Source: Archangium lipolyticum (GTDB lineage Bacteria > Myxococcota > Myxococcia > Myxococcales > Myxococcaceae). From it: a stretch of DNA of 64,000 nt. The stretch covers positions 310,001 through 374,000 of the forward strand of contig NZ_JANKBZ010000004.1 of assembly GCF_024623785.1 (NCBI RefSeq), in the 5' to 3' direction. Below are positions 54,102 through 60,132 of the stretch, piece after piece (the stretch's first letter is position 1; each line of letters starts with the position of its first letter). Both the position numbers and the translations under genes were made by a program. Below the pieces are notes generated by a model that did no database searches, was not told the DNA's origin, and saw only the letters and a list, made by a program, of their open reading frames with translations.

Positions 54102-54596
54102 ATGACGCAGACCGGAATCGGAGTGGGGGTGGCGAGGACGGAGGTGGAGGTGACGGTGGGAGCGCCGAGGGAGCGGGTGTGGAGGGCGCTGGTGGAGGAG
54201 ACGGGCCGGTGGTGGCCGCGGGAGTTCTACGTGGGCCGGGAGCCGAAGGGCTTCGTCATCGAAGCGCGCCCGGGAGGGCGGGTGTACGAGGATTGGGGCA
54301 ACGAGGCGGGGGCGCTCTGGTACACGGTACTGGTGGTGGAGCCACCGGGGGTGCTGGAGCTGGCGGGGCACCTGACGCCGGCGTTCGGAGGGCCGGCGAC
54401 GACGACGGCGCGCCTGACGTTGAAGGAGGAGGGAGAGCGGACGGTGGTGCGGGTGGAGGACGCGATCTTCGGCCGGGTGGACGAGCACACGGTCCCGAGG
54501 CTGCGGGAAGGCTGGCGTGCGCTGCTCGGAAGTGGAGGGCTCAAGACCTACGTGGAGACCCCCACCCCCTCTCCCTCTGGGAGAGGGCCGGGGTGA
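54102..54596 (+). CDS. SRPBCC (AHSA1-like) protein
   Basis: The 164-residue protein starts 38 bases after the hybrid kinase, with GGAGAGGAG near the ATG. It has the AHSA1/SRPBCC fold: TVGAPRERVWRALVEETGRW, REPKGFVIEARPGGRVYEDW, YTVLVVEPPGVLELAG, TARLTLKEEGERTVVRVED, and a C-terminal helix. The last about 12 residues (TPTPSPSGRGPG) come from a REP-like element that supplies the stop codon. It probably binds a small hydrophobic ligand; the ligand is unknown. Confidence 0.88.
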   Translation: MTQTGIGVGVARTEVEVTVGAPRERVWRALVEETGRWWPREFYVGREPKGFVIEARPGGRVYEDWGNEAGALWYTVLVVEPPGVLELAGHLTPAFGGPATTTARLTLKEEGERTVVRVEDAIFGRVDEHTVPRLREGWRALLGSGGLKTYVETPTPSPSGRGPG

Positions 54597-54600
54597 GGGT
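54564..54600. repeat. REP-like palindromic element, copy 5
   Basis: ACCCCCTCTCCCTCTGGGAGAGGG, then CCGGGGTGAGGG. It gives the SRPBCC gene its last codons and stop (GGTGA). It may act as the terminator hairpin between that gene and the convergent ASH-repeat lipoprotein gene. Confidence 0.78.
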
Positions 54601-54623
54601 CTCTCGTTCCCCGGGTCCTCAGC

Positions 54624-55838
54624 TCACGGGTCCACACCTGTACCTGAGAGGTTCAAGCCCGCGGACCGCGTGCCCCCCGTGCCATTGAGGAAGTTGAGGG
54701 AGAGCGCGAAGTGTCTCGGGCCCAGGGTGGTCGGAGCGAACGTCACGACCAGCGTGCAGCTCGCACCGCTCTGGAGCGAGGTGTCACAGGTGCCGCCCGT
54801 ACCGGGATACGCTCCGCCCTTGAAGGAGAAGGGCTCCGCGCGGAAGTCCGACCGCAGCTGGGTGGCGGCCGTGCCACCCACGTTGGTGACCGTGAAGGTG
54901 TGCTCCACGACCGTTCCGACGGTGACGGCGCCGAAGTCGAACGGATCCGCGTCCGAGAAGCGGAGATACGCGGAGGACACGGCCGAACCGCTGAGGACGA
55001 GTGGAAGGCTCCGGAAGGAGACGCCGTCCTCATAGGAGATGGACAGCGTGGTCCTCGCCTCACCCACGTCGAAGGGACTGAAGCCCAGGACGAGGGTGCA
55101 GCTCTCTCCAGCCGCGAGGGTGATCCAGCACGTGCCCTCCGTTCCGGGCTGGTAGCCCCCCTTGAAGGAGAAGGGCTGCGGGGGGTTGCGCGCCGAGAGC
55201 TGGTGCGCGTCCACGTCGCCGATGTTCGTCAGGGTCACGGTGCGCCAGGAAGTCGAGGACGAGAGCACGACCACGCTCCCGAAGTCCACGCTCGCGGGCT
55301 CGACGCGCACGAGCGCGGGGGCGAGCCCCTTGCCCGCCAGGGTCCGGGCGATGACAGCGTCCACGGGCCCATTGCCGAAGTGGACCGTGAGCGTCCCATT
55401 CACGGCGCCACGCGCGGTGGGAGCGAAGGCCACCGCGACCTGGCACGAGGCCCCGGCGGCGAGCTCGCTCCCGCACGTGCCTCCGGCGCCCGGGAAGGTG
55501 CCGCCCGCGAACGCGAAGGAGGAACCCGCCAGCGTCACCTCCAACTGCGTCGCGGTGTCCGTGCCGCGGTTGCGCAGGACGAAGCGATGCTCGGCCGTGG
55601 TCCCGATGAGGGTCGAACCGTAGTCGAAACCAGCGGCGTTGGAGACCTCGAGCGCCGCCAGCCCCGACGAGGTGCCCGCGTCCCCGCCCGTGCCCGAGCC
55701 CGCATCCGCGAGCACACCCGAGTTCTCGCCGTCACCCTTGTCGAGCCCGGTGTCGGACCCTGACTGCGTTCCGCCGCACCCGGCGCTCGCCACGGCGCAC
55801 ACCAGACCCAGAACCAATCGTTTGAAAAACACACCCAT
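54624..55838 (-). CDS. ASH/choice-of-anchor D repeat lipoprotein
   Basis: The 404-residue protein starts at MGVFFKRLV (55838) and has lipobox ASAGC (Cys about 21). A Gly/Asp/Ser-rich linker precedes three repeats of about 100 residues: FDYGSTLIGTTAEHRFVLRN, VDFGSVVVLSSSTSWRTVTL, and FDFGAVTVGTVVEHTFTVTN. Each is followed by a C-Gly stretch (GAGGTCGSELAAGASCQV and similar). They fit the ASH (ASPM-SPD2-Hydin) type beta domain found in bacterial surface proteins. It is likely surface exposed. A TAATAA -10-like sequence lies about 20 bases upstream on the minus strand. Confidence 0.87.
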   Translation of the reverse strand: MGVFFKRLVLGLVCAVASAGCGGTQSGSDTGLDKGDGENSGVLADAGSGTGGDAGTSSGLAALEVSNAAGFDYGSTLIGTTAEHRFVLRNRGTDTATQLEVTLAGSSFAFAGGTFPGAGGTCGSELAAGASCQVAVAFAPTARGAVNGTLTVHFGNGPVDAVIARTLAGKGLAPALVRVEPASVDFGSVVVLSSSTSWRTVTLTNIGDVDAHQLSARNPPQPFSFKGGYQPGTEGTCWITLAAGESCTLVLGFSPFDVGEARTTLSISYEDGVSFRSLPLVLSGSAVSSAYLRFSDADPFDFGAVTVGTVVEHTFTVTNVGGTAATQLRSDFRAEPFSFKGGAYPGTGGTCDTSLQSGASCTLVVTFAPTTLGPRHFALSLNFLNGTGGTRSAGLNLSGTGVDP

Positions 55839-55987
55839 GTCTCTTGTTTCCCCTCTTTTATTACCCCCCGGGCCCCTGGCCCATGCGGGGACGCGCGTTC
55901 TACCCGACCTCGCCGCGCCAGGTGAAAACCAATCGAAGCCGCATGAGCGCCGTGACGCACCACGGCGGGGAGGGCGCGATTTGCGGT

Positions 55988-56009
55988 TTGAACCTTGAGT
56001 ATGTTTCAA
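55988..56009 (+). promoter_or_regulatory. possible operator/promoter before the lanthipeptide precursor
   Basis: TTGAAC and GTTTCAA form an imperfect inverted pair across 9 bases, about 87 bases before the precursor ATG, in the only AT-rich stretch of the 257-base gap. A TTGCGG at 55981 could serve as -35. No experimental support; the gap holds no gene. Confidence 0.35.
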
Positions 56010-56095
56010 TTCACATCACGTCGGGGCATGCCTGCGCTCACGTGGGCGGCTCTCGACGCATGACGTGCTTCTCACGCTGCAATGGAGAGTCCCCC

Positions 56096-56296
56096 ATGAA
56101 GATGACTGATGCCCATGTCGAGGAGATTCTGTCGGGTTGGCTGTCGGGTTCCGAGACGTCGCTCGGAATGGTCAACCCCGCGGGCCCGCTGTACGTGGGC
56201 GGTTCGGCCACCGAGAGCGCGCTGACGGACGCATCTGACGCGCTGCTCACCGGCTGCAGCTCGTGCACCGGCTCGCGCAACAGCTACTGCTGCTGA
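56096..56296 (+). CDS. lanA: type 2 lanthipeptide precursor peptide
   Basis: The 66-residue peptide lies 118 bases before a LanM gene. The leader (about 1-36) has an acidic/hydrophobic start (MKMTDAHVEEILSGWLSGSE) and ends in a VGG double-Gly site. The following about 30 residues hold 11 Ser/Thr and four Cys, including LLTGCSSCTGSRNSYCC at the end. LanM would dehydrate Ser/Thr and close thioether rings to these cysteines. Cleavage after Gly36 or after the later Gly53 cannot be told apart. The gene is short, but position, leader and Cys pattern make it convincing. Confidence 0.85.
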   Translation: MKMTDAHVEEILSGWLSGSETSLGMVNPAGPLYVGGSATESALTDASDALLTGCSSCTGSRNSYCC

Positions 56297-56414
56297 TCCG
56301 CGGTTGAAGTGACGTCGTCGAGAGCCCCGCGGCACCCGGCGCTGCGCCGGATGTGCCGTGGGGTGCTCTCCGCGCGGCGAGAAGCCCCTTCGGACAAGTC
56401 ACGAGGAACAGACA

Positions 56415-59270
56415 ATGGCTGAGAGCCCCGAGTCGGAATGGCTCGTGCGCCCGGTAGTCGCGCTGATTCAACCGTTCCTGGGGAAGCTCACCGAGCGATT
56501 CGGCCAGTTGAAGGGCCTGGGTGAAGCCGAGCATGCCCTGCTGCTCGAGGCCGCCCGGACGCACCTGCGCAATGGAGCCCAGGCCCGGGTCAGCCGGGTG
56601 TTGCTGTTGGAGCTGCACGCCGCCTCCCTGACGGGGAAGCTCGACGCGGCGGATGAGACGCAGCGGTGGGAGCAGTTCATCGCCCTGGCCTGCACGGAGC
56701 CGTTCAGCGAGCACCTGCGCCGCCGCTACCCCACGCTGCACGAGCGGCTCGCCACCTTCTGCCAGCTCCAGATGGACGCGGTGCTCACCCTGGTGGAGCG
56801 CTTCATCGCGGATCGGGAGGCACTTGGCACGTTGCCGGGCGGTCCCGGGGGCGAGCTGCGCGCCATCTCCCTGGGCGCCGGGGACTCCCACCGGGGCGGC
56901 CACACCGTGGCGCGCCTGGATTTCGAGCGGGGCTCGGTGATGTACAAGCCGAGGGACGTCCAGGTGGACATCGCCCTGGAGGCGTTCCTGGAGCGCGTGC
57001 TGGCGGACCGTCCACCCCAGGAGCGGATCCGCGTGCCCAAGGTGCTCGCGCGCGAGGGCTACGGCTGGGCGGAGTTCGTCGAACATCGCTACTGCGAGGG
57101 CGAGGCCGAGTTCATCTGCTTCTACCGGAACCTCGGTCACTGGCTCGCGGTGATGCGCCTGGTGGGTGGCACGGACCTGCACTCGGAGAACCTCGTCGCA
57201 CAGGGCCCGGTGCCCGTGGTGGTGGACGTCGAGAGCCTGTTCGCTCCGGACACACCGGCCAGCCCCTCCGGGCGGGGCCAGGCGGTGGACATCGCCGCGG
57301 AGACCATCCGCACCACCGTGCTGCGCACGGGCCTGCTGCCGCTGCGCGCCACCGGCCTCGCCCTGGCCGGCGTGGACATCTCGGCGGCGGGGGCACTGCC
57401 GGGACAGCAGCCAAAGATTCCCACGCCCACCATCATCGGGGGCGGCACGGACTCCGCGCGTCTGGGAATGACCGTGATGGAGCTTCCTCCCACGAAGAAC
57501 CATCCCAGTCCCAAGCCGGTCCTCTTCCAGTATTGGGATCAGATCGTCACCGGCTTCCGCGACCTCACCGCTCGCTTCCGGGAGCTGGACGCGGCGCGGG
57601 ACATCACAGGACTGCTCCGACACTTCTCCGGCTGCGAGGTGCGGCGGATCCTCCGGCCGACCCAGGCGTACGCGGAGATCGGCCGGATGCTGTGGCATCC
57701 CGCATCGATGCATGACGCGCCCAAGGCGCTCGCACGCGCCCGGGACGTGCTGCGCCGCAACGCCGAGGCCTCACCGGGTGCGCCGACCGACCCCGCCGTC
57801 ATCGACCGGGAGATCGACGACCTGCTCGTGGGGGATGTGCCCGTCTTCACCGTCCGGGTGGATGACGCGCTCATCGAGAAGATCGTCGCCGGGTGGCGTT
57901 CGGCCGACCTCGCCCTGGAGGAGATGACCATCCAGGGGGCACTCGTCAGCGCCTATCTCAACGACCGGGTGCTCCCGCCCCGCATGCAGGATCCGCTGAA
58001 GCAACCACGCGGGGAGCGGCTGGACGCCCGCCGCAGGACCCTGGCCGCCGCGATGGTGCGGCAGATGCTCGATGCGGGCATCCGGGGCTCGGACGGCACC
58101 GTCACGTGGATCAGCCCGGTGCTCACCGAGGTGGGCTGGGTCATCCGCCCGCTGACCGCCGACGTCTACAGCGGACAGGGCGGAGTCGCGCTCGCGCTCG
58201 CCGAGTACCTGCACGAGATGAAGCAGGGACGGGTCGAGGAGGTGGAGGGCCTTGCGGCGGCGGTGAGGGGAACGCTGGAGGTGCTCCGGGCGACCGAGGA
58301 GAAGGTACCCACCCAGCACATCGGCGCCTTCCTGGGCGTGGCGTCGCAGGTGTGGACCTGGAGCTCGCTGCACGACCTGATGGGCGAGCCGTGGATGCTG
58401 GAGCGCGCCCGCGCCCGGGCCGAGGTGCTCGAGAAGCGGATGGACGAGGAGGACCGGCTGCTGGAGGTGCTCGGAGGAGCGGCCGGCGTCATCGTGCCGA
58501 TGCTCAACCTGTCCGAGCAGACGGGGGAGGCGCGGTGGCTGGAGCTGGCCGCCCGGGCGGGCCGGAAGTTGGAGGACACGGCGACGCGCGACGCGATGGG
58601 AGCTCGGTGGTCCACCTCGATGTTCCCCGAGGCGATCGGAGGCTTCGCGCACGGCGCGACGGGAATCGGCTGGGCCCTGGCGCGGCTGGGGCTGAGCGCC
58701 GCCGGGACGGAGGCGGACCGCCGGCGGTGGCTGGAGCTGGCCGACCAGGCCTTCGCCTTCGAGGAGTCGCTGTACCGCCCGGAGAAGGGAGTCTGGGCGG
58801 ACGTGCGGCGCGGCAGTGCCGTCGAGTACGTCAACGCGTGGTGCCACGGGAGTACGGGCATCGGGCTGGCGGCGTGCGACCTCTATGTCCGCACTGGAGA
58901 GACACGGCACCTGGACGTGGCCCGGAGGGCCCGGGCCGCGGGCCTGAACGAGGGCTTCGGCTGGAGCCACACGCTCTGCCACGGTGACCTGGGCTTGTGG
59001 GAGCTGCTGGACACCGAGCGGAGCATCGACCCGGAGTCCACGGGTCCCGACCGGGAGTGGATGGACACGCAGCTCCTGTCCAGCCTGGAGGAACGGGGGC
59101 CGGTGGGCGGACTGGCGCGGGAGGCGTTCTCTCCGGGATTGATGCCGGGACTCGGCGGTGTCATCCACCTGCTGCTCCGGATGCACCCCGAGCAGTCCCT
59201 GGCCACGCCGCTGCTGCTCGGCAGGTACGGACAATCGCTCCGGCAGGTGCGCGCCGCGCGCGAGCGGTAA
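56415..59270 (+). CDS. lanM: type 2 lanthipeptide synthetase (LanM)
   Basis: The 951-residue bifunctional enzyme starts at MAESPESEW. The N-terminal dehydratase domain (DUF4135 type, about 100-600) shows GDSHRGGHTVARLDF, MYKPRDVQVD, LVGGTDLHSENL and PVVVDVESLF. The C-terminal LanC-like cyclase (about 610-945) has GFAHGATGIGWALARLG, and zinc ligands C810 (WCHGSTGIG), C855 and H856 (LCHGD). All expected catalytic elements are present. No LanT exporter or leader protease gene is next to it; a beta-barrel gene follows instead. Confidence 0.95.
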   Translation: MAESPESEWLVRPVVALIQPFLGKLTERFGQLKGLGEAEHALLLEAARTHLRNGAQARVSRVLLLELHAASLTGKLDAADETQRWEQFIALACTEPFSEHLRRRYPTLHERLATFCQLQMDAVLTLVERFIADREALGTLPGGPGGELRAISLGAGDSHRGGHTVARLDFERGSVMYKPRDVQVDIALEAFLERVLADRPPQERIRVPKVLAREGYGWAEFVEHRYCEGEAEFICFYRNLGHWLAVMRLVGGTDLHSENLVAQGPVPVVVDVESLFAPDTPASPSGRGQAVDIAAETIRTTVLRTGLLPLRATGLALAGVDISAAGALPGQQPKIPTPTIIGGGTDSARLGMTVMELPPTKNHPSPKPVLFQYWDQIVTGFRDLTARFRELDAARDITGLLRHFSGCEVRRILRPTQAYAEIGRMLWHPASMHDAPKALARARDVLRRNAEASPGAPTDPAVIDREIDDLLVGDVPVFTVRVDDALIEKIVAGWRSADLALEEMTIQGALVSAYLNDRVLPPRMQDPLKQPRGERLDARRRTLAAAMVRQMLDAGIRGSDGTVTWISPVLTEVGWVIRPLTADVYSGQGGVALALAEYLHEMKQGRVEEVEGLAAAVRGTLEVLRATEEKVPTQHIGAFLGVASQVWTWSSLHDLMGEPWMLERARARAEVLEKRMDEEDRLLEVLGGAAGVIVPMLNLSEQTGEARWLELAARAGRKLEDTATRDAMGARWSTSMFPEAIGGFAHGATGIGWALARLGLSAAGTEADRRRWLELADQAFAFEESLYRPEKGVWADVRRGSAVEYVNAWCHGSTGIGLAACDLYVRTGETRHLDVARRARAAGLNEGFGWSHTLCHGDLGLWELLDTERSIDPESTGPDREWMDTQLLSSLEERGPVGGLAREAFSPGLMPGLGGVIHLLLRMHPEQSLATPLLLGRYGQSLRQVRAARER

Positions 59271-59403
59271 CCAGGCGACCGAGCCCCTCCCTGGCGCCTC
59301 GGGCCCCATGGCATCCCATGGCCCGAGTGCCCACCGTGCCCCGAGTGGGTACCGCGTGTCGCGCACGAGGCCTCCCCGGGAGGCCTCCACGGTGGAGGGG
59401 ACG

Positions 59404-60132
59404 ATGAAGGCACGGGGTGGAGTCGGTGCGCTGCTGCTTCTCGCGGGGCTGGTAGCGGGAGCGGAAGCAAGGGCCGAGGAGAAACAGGGCCACGGCTGGG
59501 ACATCACGGTGGAAGCCAACACGGACTTCCCGCTGTCGGTGGGCGGCCGGGTAGGAGTCGAATCACCGTGGCGGCTGCGCCTGTCGACGTCCCTGGGCTA
59601 TCTGCCAGCGGCGTATGTGCGAGCGGTGAACGACGTAGCGGTGGAGCTGGGCGCCTACGAGCGGGACCGCGCGACACTCATCGAGGAGGCGCTGCAAAGC
59701 TCCCTGGTGTGGAGGACACACGTGGGTTGGCGGCCCTTCCCGAGCGCGGGCTTCTACGTGGAGGGTGGCTACGGGCTGGTGGCGCTCGGCGGCGAGACGA
59801 ACCCGGAGGATGTGCTGGTGGCGCTGACGGGCGTGGAACCACCGGTGGGCGAGTCCGTGCTCAACCGGGAGTACCGCGTGCGCTCCGTGCTGCACATGGT
59901 GGACGTGGAGCTGGGCTGGCGGTGGGGACTGGGCTCGGGCTGGACGATGCGCACGGCGCTGGGCGCGGCCTTCACACTCGACTCCAACAGCCGCGTGGAG
60001 CCCCAGTTCGAGCCGAGTCAGCCGCTGCTCGTCACCGCCTTCTCCCGCTTCGCCGAGGGCTACCTGGACAGGACCTTCGAGGAGTACGTGCACTTCCCCG
60101 TGCTCTCCCTGTCCCTCGGCTACGCCTTTTGA
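59404..60132 (+). CDS. outer-membrane beta-barrel protein
   Basis: The 242-residue protein has a signal peptide (LLLLAGLVAGAEARAEE). Alternating strands follow, with aromatic belts and a C-terminal Phe (LSLSLGYAF), as in eight-stranded outer-membrane barrels. Segments: WDITVEANTDFPLSVGGRVG, RTHVGWRPFPSAGFYVEGGY, VDVELGWRWGLGSGW, then MRTALGAAFTLDS. It lies 133 bases after lanM with an SD of GGTGGAGGGG. It could be the export channel for the lanthipeptide locus or an unrelated surface protein; context alone cannot decide. Confidence 0.8.
   Translation: MKARGGVGALLLLAGLVAGAEARAEEKQGHGWDITVEANTDFPLSVGGRVGVESPWRLRLSTSLGYLPAAYVRAVNDVAVELGAYERDRATLIEEALQSSLVWRTHVGWRPFPSAGFYVEGGYGLVALGGETNPEDVLVALTGVEPPVGESVLNREYRVRSVLHMVDVELGWRWGLGSGWTMRTALGAAFTLDSNSRVEPQFEPSQPLLVTAFSRFAEGYLDRTFEEYVHFPVLSLSLGYAF

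Follow-up and report, generated by a model that had tools for sequence, protein, structure and literature searches.

Does a lanthipeptide locus that encodes a precursor and its modifying enzyme, and no transporter, rely on the gene that follows for export? The question is raised by positions 56,096 to 60,132 of a 64,000-nucleotide stretch of Archangium lipolyticum (contig NZ_JANKBZ010000004.1, positions 310,001 to 374,000; the whole stretch is referred to as the window), which a first-pass annotation had read as a minimal class II lanthipeptide locus where an outer-membrane barrel takes the place of a transporter. The current evidence very probably places here a two-gene class II lanthipeptide unit, with a precursor of the DUF6229 (rhodanocin-related) family, subtype A, while the barrel gene is a resident neighbour. 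The features of the unit are as follows.

56096–56296, plus strand: LanA precursor, 66 amino acids (aa), DUF6229 family, core subtype A4, CSSC[ST]xSxxxCC (PF19740 match; A4 Cys pattern)
56174–56203, plus strand: NPAGPLYVGG motif, residues 27–36, the DUF6229 family signature, holding the VGG (conservation in 17 aligned precursors)
56255–56293, plus strand: Cys-rich core end, CSSCTGSRNSYCC (sequence; family conservation)
56415–59270, plus strand: LanM, bifunctional lanthipeptide synthetase, 951 aa (TIGR03897, PF13575, PF05147; catalytic and zinc residues)

A precursor and its synthetase

The precursor open reading frame (ORF) extends from an ATG at 56096 to a stop ending at 56296 (translation MKMTDAHVEEILSGWLSGSETSLGMVNPAGPLYVGGSATESALTDASDALLTGCSSCTGSRNSYCC), with four cysteines, all within the final 13 residues. 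As the PF19740 (DUF6229) profile matches residues 6–66 (89.6 bits, E 1.2e-25, cutoff 25), a chance ORF is excluded, and the sequence argues for a genuine gene, so that the 66-residue precursor with four C-terminal cysteines ahead of a LanM, as first described, is borne out. The NPAGP..(V/I)GG motif of the family is present, and NPAGP, GG and E40 are invariant among the 17 aligned precursors.

The LanM starts 118 bases past the precursor stop and possesses both the DUF4135 dehydratase and the LanC-like cyclase domains (TIGR03897, 535.7 bits, cutoff 304; PF13575, 337 bits; PF05147, 124 bits), with similarity to LicM2 (E 1.1e-60) and CylM (E 1.5e-28). In alignment with these two proteins all three zinc ligands are kept, C875 (WCHG) and C911/H912 (LCHG) in CylM numbering, as are the counterparts of the dehydratase residues D252/H254 (GDSH), K274 (YKPR), D347/H349/N352 (TDLHSEN), D364 (VVVD), and R506 and T512 (VRRILRPT), whose roles have been assigned in CylM (PMC4550811). 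The enzyme is thus complete, as had been claimed, and its ratios of nonsynonymous to synonymous substitution rates (dN/dS), 0.26 against the related genome G065 and 0.32 against G064, point to purifying selection; completeness and selection both support the unit. For the precursor, dN/dS is 0.22 against G064 and uninformative against G065.

By homology, LanM would bind the N-terminal, NPAGP-containing part of the precursor, phosphorylate Ser and Thr residues in the C-terminal part, and eliminate the phosphate to yield dehydroalanine and dehydrobutyrine, to which the zinc cyclase domain would add Cys thiols, making up to four (methyl)lanthionine rings within the last 15–20 residues, one of them possibly between Thr52 and Cys57. 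Leader removal and export would be carried out by enzymes encoded elsewhere in the genome, since in two phyla the type A loci lack both functions. As a default guess, by analogy with rhodanocin, the product may have a modest antimicrobial or signalling role.

The family and its distribution

DUF6229 proteins are class II lanthipeptide precursors, and a group of them has been named rhodanocins (PMC9576775). The family comprises at least two lanthipeptide groups with different ring patterns, and a Dyella member, refactored with its own LanM, underwent four dehydrations and formed three rings (PMC9576775); this experimental demonstration of a DUF6229 precursor as a LanM substrate supports the same relationship here. 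In Lysobacter, 21 of 27 unique class II precursors belong to the family (PMC11451712). DUF6229 is found above cutoff in 29 of 195 genomes of the phylum Myxococcota, spread over three genera of a single family (Myxococcaceae), and a scan of 84,980 named species returned 75 loci, mainly from Streptomyces, the remainder being from other Actinomycetota, Corallococcus, Myxococcus/Pyxidicoccus, Lysobacter, Luteimonas, and Burkholderiales. The set collected for comparison holds 97 precursors from Myxococcota, Actinomycetota, and Pseudomonadota, some of the loci coming from the same genome. In 91 of these loci (tblastn) a LanM lies directly 3' of the precursor, on the same strand and no more than about 420 bases away; the remaining six precursors sit at contig ends, making the linkage 91 of 91 where the contig continues, which again supports a precursor-LanM unit. 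One locus, from Spongiactinospora (L133), is found on a record titled as a plasmid, and one from Sphaerisporangium (L136) has two DUF6229 precursors ahead of a single LanM.

Core subtypes and a candidate ring

The 86 distinct precursors in the set were sorted by core. Subtype A4, CS[SAI]C.......CC, includes 30, that of A. lipolyticum among them, with cysteines invariant at positions -13, -10, -2, and -1; subtype A3, CSSP.......CC, includes 34, all from Actinomycetota; type B, CGTxC.......CC, includes 14, from Myxococcus/Pyxidicoccus, Pseudomonadota, and one Kutzneria; eight were classed as other. A Streptomyces A4 core, TGCSSCTGSWHSYCC, differs from the A. lipolyticum core, TGCSSCTGSRNSYCC, at 2 of 15 positions. 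In a LanM tree built by a quick method, with support from the Shimodaira–Hasegawa-like approximate likelihood ratio test (SH-aLRT) only, a supported group of 16 unites the type A enzymes of Archangium, Corallococcus, and two Myxococcus-group genomes; the A4 and A3 enzymes of Streptomyces adjoin it, with type B apart. The three other full-length LanMs of A. lipolyticum are placed far from the type A enzymes, and this separation of the myxobacterial subtype A LanMs is a further argument for a distinct unit. A fifth, partial DUF4135 match in the same genome (53 bits, profile positions 15–182) lies in a 674-aa open frame (L005 1501–2112; G000:C2:18312-18923). A record titled Comamonas sp. KCTC 72670 (L145) holds a type B locus with a LanM inside the Myxococcus group; either the locus was transferred recently, or the record is mislabelled or contaminated.

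The comparison also yields a testable ring prediction. All 30 A4 cores have Thr at -15 (T52) together with Cys at -10 (C57), and all 34 A3 cores have neither. Across the family the two residues are either both kept or both lost, a co-occurrence that, while confounded by descent, fits a Thr52-Cys57 ring. Streptacidiphilus (L087) has an A3 core (CSSP), yet its LanM is found among those of A4 Streptomyces, a mismatch suggesting that the joint change at -15 and -10 probably occurred more than once. In Wenjunlia (L130, LSPC core), whose core likewise crosses the subtype boundaries, Cys at -13 is lost, and both T(-15) and C(-10) are kept.

The barrel gene and the site of the pair

The surroundings of the pair contain the following.

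59404–60132, plus strand: small predicted outer-membrane barrel protein, 242 aa, resident neighbour outside the lanthipeptide unit (genus-wide presence, empty sites, model)
54600–59394, no strand: segment missing from three collinear genomes of the genus (G061, G062, G064), holding the pair and a choice-of-anchor-D gene (empty-site comparison)
54624–55841, minus strand: choice-of-anchor-D/ASH-domain protein, outside the unit (NF012200, E 3.6e-37; absent from G065)
13066, 36738, 36797, 47320, 54567, 61256: dispersed palindromic repeat CCCTCTCCCTNNGGGAGAGGG, some copies in close pairs

That a beta-barrel gene follows the pair is supported by the structural model of its product, which has a signal-like N-terminus: about eight strands and an N-terminal helix are predicted (predicted local distance difference test score 71.7), and the best matches in the PDB are small outer-membrane barrels (CarO, the OprF N-domain), at query-normalised TM-scores of only 0.3–0.5. 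The stop of this gene, at 60132, is the end of the interval given in the first-pass annotation. A three-gene unit, with the barrel taking over lanthipeptide export, would be in keeping with the arrangement in the window, where the barrel gene is on the same strand, 133 bases past the LanM stop, and with the same order in G065. The distribution of the two elements, however, speaks strongly against it. All six genomes of the genus, along with two further genomes, have the barrel gene, DUF6229 being present in just 3 of the 6, and G061, G062, and G063 keep the barrel gene without any precursor. In G061, G062, and G064 the flanks align collinearly with the window, starting at about 47.5 kb, but 125–203 bases stand in place of the 4.8-kb segment (from about 54.56–54.60 kb to 59.39 kb). 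Window positions 54556 and 59394 lie 135 bases apart in G064, and the corresponding gaps measure about 125 bases (G062) and about 203 (G061); the barrel gene adjoins this empty site in all three. In G064 the precursor-LanM pair is found elsewhere, 0.57 Mb from the barrel gene, and the two are likewise not adjacent in Corallococcus, Myxococcus, or Streptomyces. The empty sites and the G064 location mean that the adjacency of pair and barrel says nothing about function, and they support the pair as a unit of its own. A barrel of this small type would also provide no passage across the inner membrane. The notion of a barrel instead of a transporter, as the first-pass annotation had it, is therefore highly implausible, and a false lead is removed.

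From these comparisons, the two-gene unit itself either entered the chromosome next to a barrel gene already resident there or was lost from that place in other genomes. The choice-of-anchor-D gene does not belong to it, since in G065 the pair occupies the same place without that gene. The palindromic repeat has 12 strand matches in the window versus 0.04 expected, and a copy at 54555–54603 coincides with the left border of the segment; as a means of movement it is uninformative, with at least 53 matches in the genome (76-base query) and a copy also present where G061 and G062 have the empty site.

Export and leader processing

The statement that no LanT or LanP is nearby stands: profile searches recognised neither among the scanned neighbours of the pair, and no C39 domain is matched anywhere on the 619-kb contig. 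The A. lipolyticum genome has nine C39 matches, two beside other LanMs and several on contigs without a linked LanM. Cleavage at GG36 and export in trans by one of these peptidase-transporters is conceivable on that ground, if still doubtful. The sequence VGG, noted at the outset, is indeed present, as part of the conserved NPAGPLxVGG, but its role as a C39 cleavage site is questionable. Around the double Gly, the LanT-linked precursors of the same genome have ELTDGDLEGVAGG and ELDEAELGGIAGG, unlike the NPAGPLYVGG at the presumed leader end here, where no C39 is linked, and LahT150, a tolerant C39 protease, left the Dyella DUF6229 peptide uncut despite a possible double Gly (PMC9576775). Moreover, E40 and L43, past the GG, show little or no variation in type A, being as conserved as the residues before it, and this conservation suggests that the recognition part may extend beyond the GG. 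The LanT-linked loci are class II loci with canonical double-Gly precursors and a C39 LanT (L068 4463–4753 and 4836–8114, the precursor ending SCCTYSTAATACCPSST; L066 8663–8965 and 4967–8200).

By a comparison of neighbourhoods, type A loci normally have neither an exporter nor a protease linked to them. The type A loci of Actinomycetota have no recurrent neighbour: beyond the precursor and LanM, no neighbour cluster recurs in more than 3 of 55 actinobacterial loci, and this lack of a further shared neighbour also supports a unit of two genes. In Corallococcus, an MFS transporter, a metallophosphatase, a C25-like peptidase, a DEAD helicase, and Spo0M recur; these look like shared chromosomal context, of which the peptidase and the MFS gene may still be helpers. 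The family is thus split between type A, represented by the pair only (Streptomyces, Corallococcus, Archangium), and a sister subgroup, type B, mostly accompanied by an ABC exporter and a FAD oxidase. The exporter, of about 600 aa (PF00005, no C39 match), directly follows LanM in Myxococcus/Pyxidicoccus, one Luteimonas, Kutzneria, and the Comamonas-titled record, and most of these loci add a berberine-bridge-like FAD oxidase (PF01565, PF08031), possibly a tailoring enzyme for type B lanthipeptides; a Burkholderiales type B locus (L140) is an exception. One such operon is L059 13146–16375, with equivalents in L057, L060, L061, L063–L065, L137, and L145. A homologue of this exporter was sought in A. 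lipolyticum as a dedicated exporter for the pair, and the result is uninformative, the best match (C4:188869), among 108, being only 34% identical.

The consistent lack of a linked exporter or protease in type A of both Streptomyces and myxobacteria, when an ABC exporter is retained at most type B loci, could mean that there is no active export of the peptide, or that lysis frees it, and that its action is within or on the producing cell. Unlinked exporters are common, however, as the 108 genomic matches illustrate, and such a fate is improbable. Of a comparably low probability is a more speculative extension, in which Streptomyces and fruiting myxobacteria would share, in type A, a conserved peptide system that has a nearly fixed core and neither an exporter nor a protease of its own, the peptide serving in development or in the envelope and not as an antibiotic for secretion.

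Several points weigh against the two-gene unit as an active and complete system. No product has been seen for the locus or the subtype; the neighbourhood comparison used heuristic gene calls and, in named genomes, flanks of only 6 kb; dN and dS of the precursor against G065 are about equal (0.079 and 0.062, over only 66 codons); and two other LanM loci of the genome own a LanT, so that an exporter could have been lost here. A decayed or silent locus that has lost its exporter would account for the missing linkage and for the variable location. The intact catalytic residues, the purifying selection on LanM, and a two-gene layout shared by two phyla make such decay very unlikely, and the locus looks functional.

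Comparison with known systems

The prediction of a minimal class II locus is thus upheld by the LanM profiles and the linked precursor, and the myxobacterial locus can now be placed in a lanthipeptide family with a characterised member. The expectation of new chemistry is weakened: the family is known, one member is characterised, and Streptomyces species carry near-identical cores, while the structure of the subtype A product may be new, no characterised subtype A product having been found in the searchable open literature, supplements aside. The family, already recognised, is carried near-identically by many Streptomyces and myxobacteria, posing the question of how type A peptides are cut and how they leave the cell.

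The characterised relative, LanII of Dyella sp. 333MFSha (rhodanocin-type; PMC9576775), shares with the A. lipolyticum precursor the PF19740 family, modification by a LanM, and a possible double Gly, a likeness at the family level. The Lysobacter clusters (PMC11451712) likewise combine a DUF6229 precursor with a LanM, their products being uncharacterised, but their cores (CSLCTGSMRINCCA in L132, VCTGCGTIHCC in L143) differ from that of A. lipolyticum, and the tree places their LanMs on the type B side. LanII-2B of Archangium violaceum (PMC9576775) is of class II, as is the A. lipolyticum pair, but it has three cysteines and is cut by LahT150, and other myxobacterial class II clusters were found via LanT (PMC3951391). 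Closer counterparts are the A4 pairs. Those of Corallococcus share the two-gene layout, with LanMs about 62–64% identical to that of A. lipolyticum and a core mostly of the form TGCSSC[ST]AS....CC, but they have no conserved Ser at -4 and occupy a chromosomal context of their own. Those of Streptomyces (S. wedmorensis, L073; S. gardneri, L080), while from a different phylum and with LanMs about 58% identical, possess the same two-gene layout, the core TGCSSCTGSWHSYCC, and precursors 64–67% identical to the one described here.

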